Assembly: GCF_021021555.1 (NCBI RefSeq)
Contig: NZ_JAINWA010000003.1
Coordinates: 1,364,001 to 1,428,000, forward strand
Direction: 5' to 3'
Source of the DNA: Teretinema zuelzerae
GTDB lineage: Bacteria > Spirochaetota > Spirochaetia > Treponematales > Treponemataceae
DNA length: 64,000 nucleotides
The notes under the pieces are model-generated. The model worked only from the letters and a program-made list of their open reading frames with translations. It had not been told where the DNA came from and did no database searches. Below, piece after piece: positions 24,894 to 32,378 of this stretch; position 1 is the first letter of the stretch; each line of letters begins with the position of its first letter. The position numbers were made by a program, and so were the translations under genes.

Positions 24894-25759
24894 AAGTTCT
24901 CGCGCACCGGGGAGCGATGGCTCTCGCACCGCAAAATACGATGCCGGCATTCCGGCTTGCCTGGGAATCCGGAGCGGACGGCATCGAGCTGGACGTGCAA
25001 TGCACGAAGGACGGAATCTCGGTCGTTTTCCATGACGATCGACTCGACGATTTGACCGACGGCGCCGGACCGGTGCGCGGCTATACGCTCGAACAACTGC
25101 AGAAACTCGACGCGGGTTCGCATTTCGGAAGCGAATGGAAGGGAGAACGCATACCGACCCTGGAAGAAGTTCTCCGGGAGCGCCCCAAGGGAAGCATCGT
25201 AAACATCGAAATCAAAACCGAAATGGAATTCGACCCCTTCTTCGACAAAATCCTCCATTTCTGGAGGTTCTATCCTCCCCTTGCCCGGGACAGAGAAAGC
25301 CCGAGGGAAAAAGAGGCGCTGCGAACCGCGAAAACGACCGCGAACTGTCTGCGCGGACTGTTGCCCGAATTTCCCGATCTGCGCGAGAACATCATCGTCT
25401 CGAGCTTCGATCCGGCGGCCCTGGAGTTTTTCCGCGCGGAAATGCCGGAAATCGCGCAGGGTTTCTTGTATTGCGTAGAAGTTCGGAGAGACACCCGGCC
25501 GCTTATGAAGGAGATCGCGCACGAGGCGGTGCATCCCTCCGTATTCGAAATCAACGCGCGGAAAACCCGCGGGATTCATGCCGCCGGAAAGAAGGTCAAT
25601 TGCTGGACGGTCAACAAGGACGCTCAGGTACGGAAGCTCTACCGGATGGGAGTCGATACGATAATAACGAACCATCCTCATCGAATGGTAAAACATATCA
25701 AAGAACTGGACGAAAACAATAAAAAGAGAGCCGGGAAGGCCGATACATTCAACAGATGA
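24890..25759 (+). CDS. Cytoplasmic glycerophosphodiester phosphodiesterase
   Basis: 289 aa, no signal peptide. The motif set LAHRGAMALAPQNTMPAF, GADGIELDVQCTKDG, VVFHDDRLDDLTDG and later NIEIKTE matches GDPD/UgpQ enzymes, with the paired His and the Glu-x-Asp metal ligands intact. It should hydrolyse glycerophosphodiesters to glycerol-3-phosphate and an alcohol. The stretch INARKTRGIHAAGKKVNCWT and the C-terminal TNHPHRM are also family features. It is coupled by ATGA overlaps to the kinase upstream and the J-domain gene downstream, which is an unusual setting. Confidence 0.9.
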   Translation: MKVLAHRGAMALAPQNTMPAFRLAWESGADGIELDVQCTKDGISVVFHDDRLDDLTDGAGPVRGYTLEQLQKLDAGSHFGSEWKGERIPTLEEVLRERPKGSIVNIEIKTEMEFDPFFDKILHFWRFYPPLARDRESPREKEALRTAKTTANCLRGLLPEFPDLRENIIVSSFDPAALEFFRAEMPEIAQGFLYCVEVRRDTRPLMKEIAHEAVHPSVFEINARKTRGIHAAGKKVNCWTVNKDAQVRKLYRMGVDTIITNHPHRMVKHIKELDENNKKRAGKADTFNR

Positions 25760-26925
25760 ATCAAGTACATGAGCGCATCAGTCTGGAACGGAATCTCAGT
25801 TTAGTGCTTGGCCGCCAGGTGCGCCTCGGAAGCCCGGACCTTCAGGGGCTCGATCCCAGGGCGCTCAAAAAAGCGTTTTACCGGCGCGCGCACGAGTACC
25901 ATCCGGACAAGGCGGCGGTTCTCGGCAAGGATCCGGAATACCTGGCGAATCGTTTCAGATCGCTGCAGGACGCATACGAGCTTGTTCTGGATTCATGGAA
26001 CAGCGGCGCCTACCATCACCTTGAAGCGCGCGCGGCAGAAGCTCCCCGGGCCTATTCCGCCCGAAGCGAAAGTCCGGTTCGCGGCGAAGACGCAGCCCGA
26101 AGGGATAATTCAACCCGAAGCGAAAGTCCGGTTCGCGGCGAAGACGCAGCCCGAAGCGATAACTCAGCCCGAAGCGATAACTCAGCCCGAAAAAACAGTG
26201 CCGGCCCGGCATGGCAAGCCGCACAGGCCGCCGGTTCGGACGAGAGAGCGCAGTCGCGCAGGCGCCCGCGAACTGACTCGAGCACCGATTCGCGCACCGA
26301 TTCGCGAACAGACTCGCGCGCCGCGGAGGAAGACCGCCCGCGGGAGAACGCGGACGCGCAAACGCGCAGACATGCCCGGAACCGATCGCACGCACATGCC
26401 GATCGGCGAGACAGCGCAGAAACGCGCGATGCGCGCAAGAGCCGGAGCGAAAACACGGACGGCGGGGCCGATTGCGCCCGGAGCAGGGTTGAAACGGCAG
26501 GAGCGGGGGTATTCCATTCCGGACCGCTGCCGAGAACGGAACTGAGGCTCGCGCAATACTTGTATTATCTGGGCAAGATCGACTGGAATACGCTGATACG
26601 GGCGCTGTGCTGGCAGTACCGGTCCCGGCCGAGGACCGGCGACATCGCGGTAGAGCTCGGCTATATGACGAGACACGCGGTACACAAAACGCTGACGCAG
26701 AGAAAGGCCGGAGAACTGTTCGGCCAGGCGGCCCTGCGGATGGGCAGCATCGAGCCCGGCGAATTCTCCGTCGTCATGGGCAGACAACGGCTCATGAAGC
26801 TCCCCATCGGCAGATACTTCATCGACCGCGGCCTCCTTACGGAAGAAGAAATGGACAGTTGCGCGGAAGATCTCCGCAGGCACAATATAACCGTCCGCTC
26901 GGAAGCCTTCACGGCGAAACTGTAA
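25756..26925 (+). CDS. J-domain protein with repeat-rich linker and uncharacterised C-terminal domain
   Basis: 389 aa. The N-terminus is a J domain (LKKAFYRRAHEYHPDKAAVL, HPD intact near residue 46), so it should stimulate a DnaK-type Hsp70. Residues about 95-250 are a Ser/Arg/Asp/Glu-rich, probably disordered linker built from repeats (RSESPVRGEDAA twice, then RSDNSA and TDSR units). The C-terminal 130 residues (LRLAQYLYYLGKIDWNTLIR, IAVELGYMTRHAVHKTL, IGRYFIDRGLLTEEEMD) contain two similar helical segments and match no family I can name. The first resembles the type found in PilB/GspE N-terminal-like modules. It lacks the zinc and substrate domains of true DnaJ. Coupled to the upstream gene by ATGA. 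Confidence 0.8.
   Translation: MNQVHERISLERNLSLVLGRQVRLGSPDLQGLDPRALKKAFYRRAHEYHPDKAAVLGKDPEYLANRFRSLQDAYELVLDSWNSGAYHHLEARAAEAPRAYSARSESPVRGEDAARRDNSTRSESPVRGEDAARSDNSARSDNSARKNSAGPAWQAAQAAGSDERAQSRRRPRTDSSTDSRTDSRTDSRAAEEDRPRENADAQTRRHARNRSHAHADRRDSAETRDARKSRSENTDGGADCARSRVETAGAGVFHSGPLPRTELRLAQYLYYLGKIDWNTLIRALCWQYRSRPRTGDIAVELGYMTRHAVHKTLTQRKAGELFGQAALRMGSIEPGEFSVVMGRQRLMKLPIGRYFIDRGLLTEEEMDSCAEDLRRHNITVRSEAFTAKL
26068..26196 (+). repeat. Internal direct repeats in the J-domain gene
   Basis: A near-perfect 54-base unit encoding RSESPVRGEDAAR plus the start of the next unit occurs twice (about 26068 and 26122). Two copies of an 18-base unit encoding RSDNSA follow. All units keep the reading frame, so copy number can change without breaking the protein. 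Confidence 0.7.
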
Positions 26926-26928
26926 TAT

Positions 26929-28241
26929 ACGCGGCCCGACCGGCCGATACCCTACAACCATCCGTTCCGCGTTATCTGGAACTTGTCCGTCTTGACGGCG
27001 ATTCTCGTTTTTTTCATCAACACCTTCTACCGCATCGTATTCGACTCGTTTTCGGTCGACGCAATATACGTCGGCGCCGTTTGCGTATTCATCGTCGACG
27101 CGGCCCTCAACTTCTTCACCACAGTGAAAATAGGACACATCAAATACGAATCGTTCGCCGAGATACGCGGAAGATATCTGAAGAAGGATTTTTATATCGA
27201 CCTTTTTTCAGCAGCGCCGATAGAATATGTTCTCCTCGCCGCCGGCGCGGGGATTCAGCCCGATAGTCCGGCGCAAACGGCGATGCTCGCCCTGCATGCG
27301 CTGTCGCTCGTAAAGCTCTGCAAGGTTTCGCGCATTTTCCGTGAACTCGGCGAAACGATACCGATTCTCCCCTCGGTCTGGCGTCTTATCCATTTCGCGT
27401 ACTGGCTCGCTCTGACGGTCCACGGAATCGTTATCGGATGGCTTCTCATAGGAGCCGGAGAAGCGCACCGGAACGCCGGAGATCAATACCTGAGAGGCCT
27501 GTACTGGGCGATCACGACCGTTTCCACCATCGAGTACGGAGACTACGGACCGGACCACGACAGCAACATCCAGGTGTTCTACACCCTGCTGGTGGAGCTC
27601 TTCGGAGTGGGCATGTTTTCGTACGTAGTCGCGAACGTATCGAGCTTGATATCGAATCTCGATATATCCAGAAGCAACTGGCAGCGGAAGCTGGAAGAAA
27701 TCAACGCGTACATGATCTCCCAGAACATCCGAAGGATCTTCAGGAGCGGGTGAAGGATTACTACTCGTACCTGTGGACGAAGCAGAAGGGCGTCGACATG
27801 ACGACGGCCCTCGACGGAATTCCCGGAGGGCTTTCGCAGGAAATCAGGCTGTTCCTCAACAAAGACATGCTTTCCAAGGTGCATATTTTCAAAAGCGCCG
27901 AGGAGCTCTTCCTGCGGGAGGCGGTGCGCCTCATGAAGCCGCAGGTATTCCTCCCGGGGGAGTTCATCATCAGGCAGGGAGAATTCGCCGACTGCATGTA
28001 TTTCCTCGCGGCCGGCGAAGTGCTGGTGCAAATAAACGGGACGGAGGTCGCGCGGCTCGGGGCGGGATCGACGTTCGGGGAAATGGCCCTCGTTACGAAC
28101 CAGTACCGGAACGCGAGCGTCATCGCGCTGAACTACGGAACCGGGTATCGGCTTGAAAAGGACGATTTCTACGTGCTCCGGACCCGGTATCCCGAGTTCG
28201 ACCGGCAGGTGGAAGAAATCACCAAAGAACGGACGACCTGA
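26929..28241 (+). pseudogene. Cyclic-nucleotide-gated ion channel, frameshifted and without a normal start codon
   Basis: Six-helix channel with C-linker and cNMP-binding domain split over two frames. Frame 1 (to 27753) has the S1-S6 helices, pore segment TTVSTIEYGDYG, and ends ...AYMISQNIRRIFRSG. Frame 3 continues at once with KDLQERVKDYYSYLW, then the cyclic-nucleotide domain (PGEFIIRQGEFADCMYFLAA, GSTFGEMALVTNQYRNASVI). Restoring one C in the CC at 27729-27730 rebuilds the family's C-linker sequence. The conserved leader IPYNHPFRVIWN lies upstream of the only normal start (TTG 26983), in frame with a stop at 26923-26925; an ACG at 26929 stands where a start would be expected. The repaired protein would be about 437 aa. 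It is either a decaying gene or a sequence error. Confidence 0.8.
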
Positions 28242-28333: not shown

Positions 28334-28420
28334 ATACGGCTTGCGGGGGAACCTCACGGTTGAGAAGGTTAAAACCTGACCCTTGGAACCTGACAGTTAA
28401 CACTGGCGTAGGGAAGCATA
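28334..28420 (+). promoter_or_regulatory. TPP riboswitch (THI element)
   Basis: Conserved THI-box segments are present in order: GCGGGGGAACC, GGTTGAGAAGG, ACCCTTGGAACCTGACAG (28379 on) and CACTGGCGTAGGGAAGC. The usual CTGAGA is TTGAGA here. GCTT at 28339 and AAGC at 28414 can close the P1 helix. Thiamine pyrophosphate binding should turn off the thi genes downstream, through the terminator that follows. The bases from 28242 to 28333 hold only a weak candidate promoter (TATAAG near 28310). Confidence 0.93.
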
Positions 28421-28474
28421 GCGGATCGTTCGAACTGTATCAGCCGCCCGCGGCCGGACAGGTTCGTCGTACTG

Positions 28475-28601: not shown

Positions 28602-29927
28602 ATGGAACAGAGAAGGACTTGCAAAAGTCAGATGGAAGCGGCGCGTTCGGGCGAGATCACGGCCGAGGTGCGCGAGGCCGCGCGGTTCGAGGGAATCGAA
28701 CCCGCTCTTTTGCGCGACATGATCGCCTCGGGAACGGCGGCGTTGCCGGCGAACAGACGGCATCTCAAGCTTGAGCCCCGCGCGGTGGGCCGCAAGCTGA
28801 AAACAAAAATCAACGTAAACATGGGAACCTCCCGGGACATCGAGGACGCAGAGGGAGAGCTCGAGAAAGTGCGCCTCGCCGAAAAGCTCGGCGCCCATGC
28901 CCTCATGGATTTGAGCTCCGCCGGAGACACCCGGCGGCTCCGCAGAACGATAATCGAAACATCGCCGCTCATGATCGGAACGGTTCCCGCATACGATACC
29001 GTCGCCCGGGCGAACAAACCATTGAGGGAAATCACCTCGGACGACTGGATCGAATCGGTACGCCTCCACGCCGAGGACGGAGTCGATTTCCAGACGATTC
29101 ACGCCGGTTTGACGAAGCGCCTCGCGGAGGAAATCATCCAGAGAAGCAAAACCGGCGCCCGCCTTACCGGCCTTGTATCGCGCGGAGGATCTCTCCTGTT
29201 CGCGTGGATGGCCGAAACCGGAAAAGAAAATCCCTACTACGAGCGGTTCGACGAAGTGCTAGCGATTTGCGCTGAGCATGAGGTGACGGTGAGCCTCGGG
29301 GATTCGTGCAGGCCGGGATCGACGGCGGACTCGAGCGACGGAGCGCAGATCGGAGAGCTCATAGTTCTCGGAGATCTGGTACAGCGGGCGCGGAAGGCGG
29401 GCGTGCAAACGATCGTGGAAGGCCCGGGGCACATGGCCCTGGACGAAATCGAAGCGAACATGGCGATAGCCCGGAGGCTCTGCGGCGACGCTCCCTTCTA
29501 CGTGCTCGGACCGTTGACGACGGACATAGCTCCCGGCTACGACCACATCACCGCGGCTATCGGCGGGGCCGTCGCGGCGGCGGCGGGAGCGGCATTCCTC
29601 TGCTACGTGACGCCGGCCGAGCATCTGCGGCTTCCCACGCTGGAAGACGTTCGGGAGGGAATAATCGCTTCGGTCATCGCGGCCCACTCGGCGGACATAG
29701 CGAAGGGAGTTCCCGGTGCGCGGGATCGCGACGACCGCATGAGCAGGGCGAGGCAGAATCTCGACTGGGAGCAGATGTTCACCCTTGCCGTCGATCCTGA
29801 AAAAGCGCGCCTCTACCGCTCTCAATCCGAGCCGAGCGAAAAGGACAGCTGCACCATGTGCGGAAAGCTCTGCGCGGTGCGCAACGTAAACCGCGTGATC
29901 TCCGGGGAGGCCTCCGATGTCCTGTAA
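28602..29927 (+). CDS. thiC: Phosphomethylpyrimidine synthase
   Basis: 441 aa. A radical-SAM enzyme that converts aminoimidazole ribotide to HMP phosphate, the pyrimidine half of thiamine. Landmarks: KINVNMGTSRDIEDAEGEL near residue 68, GDSCRPGSTADSSDGAQ, EGPGHMALDEIEANM, YVLGPLTTDIAPGYDHITAA, FLCYVTPAEHLRLP, and the C-terminal iron-sulphur motif CTMCGKLCAVR (Cys-x2-Cys-x4-Cys). It is a short bacterial/archaeal-type ThiC without the long N-terminal region of E. coli ThiC. AAGGAAGG precedes the ATG. It is the first gene after the TPP riboswitch and overlaps thiM by 11 bases. Confidence 0.96.
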   Translation: MEQRRTCKSQMEAARSGEITAEVREAARFEGIEPALLRDMIASGTAALPANRRHLKLEPRAVGRKLKTKINVNMGTSRDIEDAEGELEKVRLAEKLGAHALMDLSSAGDTRRLRRTIIETSPLMIGTVPAYDTVARANKPLREITSDDWIESVRLHAEDGVDFQTIHAGLTKRLAEEIIQRSKTGARLTGLVSRGGSLLFAWMAETGKENPYYERFDEVLAICAEHEVTVSLGDSCRPGSTADSSDGAQIGELIVLGDLVQRARKAGVQTIVEGPGHMALDEIEANMAIARRLCGDAPFYVLGPLTTDIAPGYDHITAAIGGAVAAAAGAAFLCYVTPAEHLRLPTLEDVREGIIASVIAAHSADIAKGVPGARDRDDRMSRARQNLDWEQMFTLAVDPEKARLYRSQSEPSEKDSCTMCGKLCAVRNVNRVISGEASDVL

Positions 29928-31448: not shown

Positions 31449-32378
31449 ATGAGGGCGGCGCTCTCCATCGCGGGGACCGATCCGACCGGGGGCGCGGGAA
31501 TTTTCACGGACCTTCGGACGTTCGGCGAATACGGGCTGCGCGCCATGGGATGCGTTACCGCGGTGATCGCGCAAAACTCGCGCGGGGCAACCGGTCCGCG
31601 GCAAGAACAGCCGTGCGGGGACGGCAAAACGACGGTCGAGCCCGGCAGAGACGACGAAATGCCTCAGGCATGCAGGCAGACGACGGTCGAACCCGGCAGA
31701 GAGGACCCCTTGCCGGCAGTTCGCGGATGTTCAGGCGGCGCGGAGCGCTCTGCCGGAGCGATTCGCGCTTGCGAGGGGCTCTCGGGAGCGATCGCCTGCG
31801 TGGAGCCTGCGATGCTGGAAGCCCAGCTGGAGGCGGTCTACGGAGAAATAGCGCCCGACGCGGTGAAGATCGGGCTTCTCCCGACGCCGGAAGCCGTGAA
31901 AGCGGCGGCGGGTGCGCTCGCGCGCCGCGGACAGAAACGCATCGTCGTTGATCCGGTGCTCAAGGCGTCCAGCGGACTCGTCCTGACGGCGCCGGATACG
32001 GTGCGCGCCCTGATCGAGTTTCTCTTTCCTCTGGCGGATCTGATCACGCCGAACATGGCAGAGCTTTCGATTCTGGCCGGAATGACGGTGCGGTCGAAGG
32101 AAGACATGGAGAAGGCAGGCATCGCGTTGGCCGGGAAAACGGGAAGAGCTGTTCTCGCGAAGGGCGGACACCTTTCAGGCGATTGCGACGACTGCCTGAT
32201 CTCGGGCGGGACGATCCGGTGGTTCGCCGGCAAGAGGGTATTCGGAGGGAACGAGAGGGGAACGGGATGCCGGCTCTCCTCGGGTATCTGCGCCGAGCTC
32301 GCCTCGGGGCGCGATATCGCCGAGGCGATAGCGCGGGCGAAAGAGCGGCTCGCGGCCGCTCTTTCGGCGAGACTATAG
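31449..32378 (+). CDS. thiD: HMP/HMP-phosphate kinase with internal insertion
   Basis: 309 aa, longer than the usual 260-270. It phosphorylates HMP and HMP-P to HMP-PP. The ribokinase-fold core is present: LSIAGTDPTGGAGIFTDLRT, DAVKIGLLPTPE, RIVVDPVLKASSG, LITPNMAELSILAG and the anion-hole loop GTGCRLSSG. Between AQNSRG (about residue 47) and VEPAMLEAQLEAV (about 118) there are about 65 extra residues instead of a short loop, including a 17-residue duplication (TTVEPGR twice). Folding may tolerate this as a surface loop, since the position is next to the substrate lid (inference). It is last in the thi operon, four bases from the convergent phoR. Confidence 0.9.
   Translation: MRAALSIAGTDPTGGAGIFTDLRTFGEYGLRAMGCVTAVIAQNSRGATGPRQEQPCGDGKTTVEPGRDDEMPQACRQTTVEPGREDPLPAVRGCSGGAERSAGAIRACEGLSGAIACVEPAMLEAQLEAVYGEIAPDAVKIGLLPTPEAVKAAAGALARRGQKRIVVDPVLKASSGLVLTAPDTVRALIEFLFPLADLITPNMAELSILAGMTVRSKEDMEKAGIALAGKTGRAVLAKGGHLSGDCDDCLISGGTIRWFAGKRVFGGNERGTGCRLSSGICAELASGRDIAEAIARAKERLAAALSARL

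Follow-up and report, generated by a model that had tools for sequence, protein, structure and literature searches.

Among prokaryotic cyclic-nucleotide-gated channels, the best solved matches to the gene described here are both spirochaetal: LliK of Leptospira licerasiae (PDB 5v4s) and SthK of Spirochaeta thermophila (PDB 6cjq, 6vxz, 7rsh and others). SthK is a cAMP-gated K+ channel with a C-linker and a cyclic-nucleotide-binding domain (CNBD), and its K+ signature reads TIGYGD (PMC6093708). LliK, like the gene described here, has six helices followed by a C-linker and a CNBD, and its selectivity filter reads TVGYGD in the alignment. Both genes are intact. An uncharacterised orthologue from a metagenome-assembled genome (MAG) of Spirochaetales SZUA-377 (L003/L026), together with those of other spirochaete MAGs, likewise keeps this domain order; L003/L026 is a single open frame with the filter TIGYGD.

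The window, meaning the whole stretch of 64,000 nucleotides that was analyzed, covers positions 1364001-1428000 of contig 3 of a 3.62 Mb genome (3 contigs, estimated 97% complete, GC content 58%), whose relatives are spirochaetes. A channel gene at 26926-28241 on the forward strand encodes six helices, a C-linker and a CNBD, spread over two frames. Its features are the following:

26926..27753, + strand: upstream frame of the channel gene (N-terminus, S1-S6 with the pore, start of the C-linker); Ion_trans 1.2e-11 and Ion_trans_2 1e-9 (Pfam); 57% identity to L003
26929..26931, + strand: ACG codon, perhaps an ATG start originally; TRPDRPIPYNHP in the window against MRPIPHNHP in L011
26983..26985, + strand: TTG, earliest ordinary start codon in this frame, after the conserved IPYNHPFRVIWN (sequence reading)
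27532..27534, + strand: GAG (Glu) codon replacing the first filter glycine (TIEYGD); T[IV]GYGD in 30/30 distinct relatives
27729..27730, + strand: frame break, one base short relative to all relatives; joint of two tblastn matches and of the coding-frame path
27730..28241, + strand: downstream frame of the channel gene (remaining C-linker and CNBD); cNMP_binding 3e-18 (Pfam); 67% identity to L003; stop TGA at 28239-28241
27742..27753, + strand: AGGAG (27742-27746), then GTG (27750-27752) in overlap with the TGA (27751-27753) that now ends the upstream frame; translation of the downstream half could restart here (sequence reading)

The upstream half contains a six-helix voltage-sensor-like and pore domain, identified both by the two Pfam families and by the solved structures, with LliK matching at E 2.3e-30 over residues 11-270 and SthK at E 2.6e-22. 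The C-linker and CNBD follow the pore in the expected order in the DNA, but in another frame, and the pore, C-linker and CNBD of the window copy therefore do not share one open reading frame. Coding in the upstream frame runs from 26926 to 27750 and ends at the TGA eight codons past the break. Judged by its sequence, the window copy is a gene of the SthK/LliK kind by descent, while as a working channel it fails on two defining features, the single frame and the filter signature, which are kept in the intact LliK and SthK. The reading that we favor, with a probability of about 0.85, is that of a recent pseudogene of a cyclic-nucleotide-gated K+ channel of this kind; an ordinary pseudogene is most likely, rather than a new sort of channel.

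The first-pass annotation had attributed the break in the channel gene to the loss of one base from the short C run at 27729-27730, and comparison with orthologues, which it had proposed as a check, bears this out. In tblastn searches, dozens of intact relatives match the upstream half of the gene as far as 27729 and the downstream half from 27729 on, and in most of them the residues on either side of the joint are consecutive (e.g. 380/381 in L003, 266/267 in L011 and 268/269 in L004); in L003, the closest intact relative, the second half picks up at the very next residue. Since the halves align in two frames, mostly with no residue lost at the joint, one base is absent with respect to all relatives. 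The same position emerged independently of homology, as a coding-frame Viterbi path trained on the window alone switches frame at 27729/27730. No split form of the gene was found among the relatives examined by tblastn, which read the joint in one frame. The nearest relative is distant: no closer strain was found among the genome contigs searched, the best relative being 56-57% identical.

The alternative with most in its favor is that the missing base is a base-call or assembly deletion in the C run, in which case the gene would encode a full-length channel whose filter is odd and whose start is unconventional. This is unlikely, although the break is the only indel, lies in a C run and leaves everything else open, and the conserved sites carry no excess of changes. 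The run of C comprises no more than two or three bases, and the filter glutamate is a separate substitution that an indel error does not explain. Moreover, about 37.7 kb of coding sequence sampled from the genome itself, matched with at least 40% identity to a limited set of relatives, gave no other real homology-supported frame break. Although this figure does not describe the genome as a whole, it makes an assembly full of errors improbable, and the scarcity of frame breaks nearby supports the deletion in the channel gene. One further candidate, in L087, proved spurious, as the stretch matched upstream carries stops in all three frames. An automatic codon-usage frameshift flag run over 464 kb raised 16 flags and passed over the channel gene, since it accepts GTG 27750 as a permitted start codon close to the stop; this flag is not specific and was excluded from the evidence.

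The second lesion lies in the selectivity filter. T[IV]GYGD is present in each of the 30 distinct relatives found, which range from spirochaetes to Verrucomicrobia, and the glutamate of TIEYGD, which departs from the K+ signature T-[IV]-G-Y-G-D, is unique to the window copy; in a leave-one-out test, the lone change was G196E (test numbering), corresponding to residue 203 of P0001. The first-pass annotation had noted TIEYGD in place of TVGYGD: the motif is present and its uniqueness makes the case stronger than could be known then, but the family form is TIGYGD. In the mouse channel GIRK2, the GYG signature begins with the glycine G156. Weaver (G156S), a mutation in the selectivity filter of that channel, abolishes K+ selectivity (PMC9001731). 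By analogy, loss of selective K+ conduction is the likely effect of the filter glutamate. The further proposal that ion selectivity would be unusual if a functional form exists is less probable than plain loss of function, because the filter change shares a gene with the frame break and the weaver substitution destroys K+ selectivity. If the product were still made, a glutamate at the first GYG position would amount to a natural test of the tolerance of the K+ filter.

The start region is less telling. The preceding J-domain gene ends with TAA at 26923-26925. The channel reading frame opens directly behind this stop without a change of frame, and no ATG, GTG or TTG was found in it upstream of TTG 26983. 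As had been claimed earlier, this TTG is the first usable start and lies behind IPYNHPFRVIWN, a motif that most relatives precede by a few codons with an ATG. As an argument for damage the observation is weaker than it seemed: no ATG, GTG or TTG was found near the conserved N-terminus of the nearest intact relative L003/L026 either, so the lack of an ordinary start does not by itself demonstrate damage. This intact nearest orthologue (4850-5060 of L026) may begin at a rare start codon, for instance ATT, or carry a defect of its own. In the window, the ACG at 26929 could be a former ATG, judging from the alignment with L011. Loss of the start through a small deletion, rather than through ATG to ACG, was also considered as a possible route; CCGATA precedes the ATG in many relatives, and in the window it stands immediately before TAC AAC CAT. 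This CCGATA resembles a -10 box and lies a few bases before the ATG in L005, L006, L007, L009, L012, L014 and L019, a position that suggests very short or absent leaders in several of the channel orthologues.

The pseudogene reading is thus supported by the homology in two frames, the homology-free frame switch, the unique filter change, the lack of an ordinary start, the single copy, the absence of any other break in the coding sequence scanned and the patchy presence of the family; relative to intact orthologues, the frame break and the filter substitution are both disabling changes. As a mechanism, the one-base break in the C-linker parts the pore from the CNBD, and the upstream frame, ending shortly after it, would yield a pore module that lacks most of the C-linker and the ligand domain and has a disrupted K+ filter. 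From such a truncated module, no cAMP-gated K+ channel would be expected to form. Set against this reading are the two open halves, their coding composition (GC3 0.71 upstream and 0.80 downstream) and conserved sites kept as in intact copies of the same genus, which give no sign of long decay, as well as the missing ordinary start in the nearest intact relative. Among otherwise invariant sites, 7 of 109 are changed in the window copy, compared with 7/109 in L006 and 10/112 in L005, both intact copies from the same genus, and 3/105 in L003. These counts fit a recent inactivation without proving it, the relatives being too distant for dN/dS. If the gene is dead, its loss would be recent, because the conserved sites and the coding composition are kept.

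A second alternative takes the gene as split into two halves made by coupled translation. The pore half would end at TGA 27751, and translation of the C-linker/CNBD half would start separately at GTG 27750. The GTGA overlap and the AGGAG upstream of it would couple the two, and the product would be a two-piece protein with altered permeation. The AGGAG, the GTG and the overlapping TGA are all in the sequence, and both halves are open and compositionally coding; nevertheless, the same bases code for QERV in intact relatives, the cut falls inside the C-linker, the filter is damaged too and no relative is split. Since these residues are coding in the intact relatives, the reinitiation signal is older than the break, and it is probably accidental. 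A channel of two coupled halves split at the C-linker, in which the filter glutamate changes ion selectivity, is consequently very improbable. Least credible of all, to the point of being negligible, is a programmed -1 frameshift that yields a full-length protein from the gene as deposited: -1 is the direction that rejoins the frames, but the joint (AACATCC) has no usual slippery heptamer and the relatives read it without any shift.

The distribution of the family accords with the pseudogene reading. Including the genome itself, the channel family is present in 9 of 59 relative genomes and in 4 of the 12 genomes of the genus (3 of the 11 others). In the order, with weak matches counted, it is present in 23 of 394 genomes. 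Such patchy presence in the genus is as expected of a dispensable gene. No second channel of the SthK/LliK kind that might compensate was found in the genome, where the gene is single-copy. Taken alone, a pseudogene here is of little significance; it would record that one lineage has lost a cAMP-gated K+ channel, within a family that is patchy among spirochaetes.

The neighborhood of the gene differs from that of its relatives. L003/L026 has different neighbors, and an operon with the upstream J-domain gene was considered and rejected: in the genus relatives examined other genes follow the J-domain gene, and the channel lies on other contigs. The J-domain gene itself (25756-26925, + strand) has a low-complexity middle at 26054-26197 made of 18- and 54-base repeats, and relatives match only its two ends well. 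In G007, a genome of the same genus (L054 1003-3032), another cNMP-binding gene comes after the J-domain gene; judged by its sequence, it joins a CNBD to an HD-GYP-like domain, a name given by eye. Downstream of the channel gene, a TPP riboswitch candidate at 28335-28432 (+ strand) scores 53.2 bits against the Rfam gathering score of 54.3 (E 1.1e-9) and is missed by the default Rfam scan; it precedes thiC (28602-29927) and further thiamine genes. Within a ThiD-like open reading frame at 31449-32378 (+ strand), an insert carries a 27-base unit twice in nearly the same form, at 31629-31655 and 31680-31706, spaced 51 bases apart, so that TTVEPGR occurs twice.
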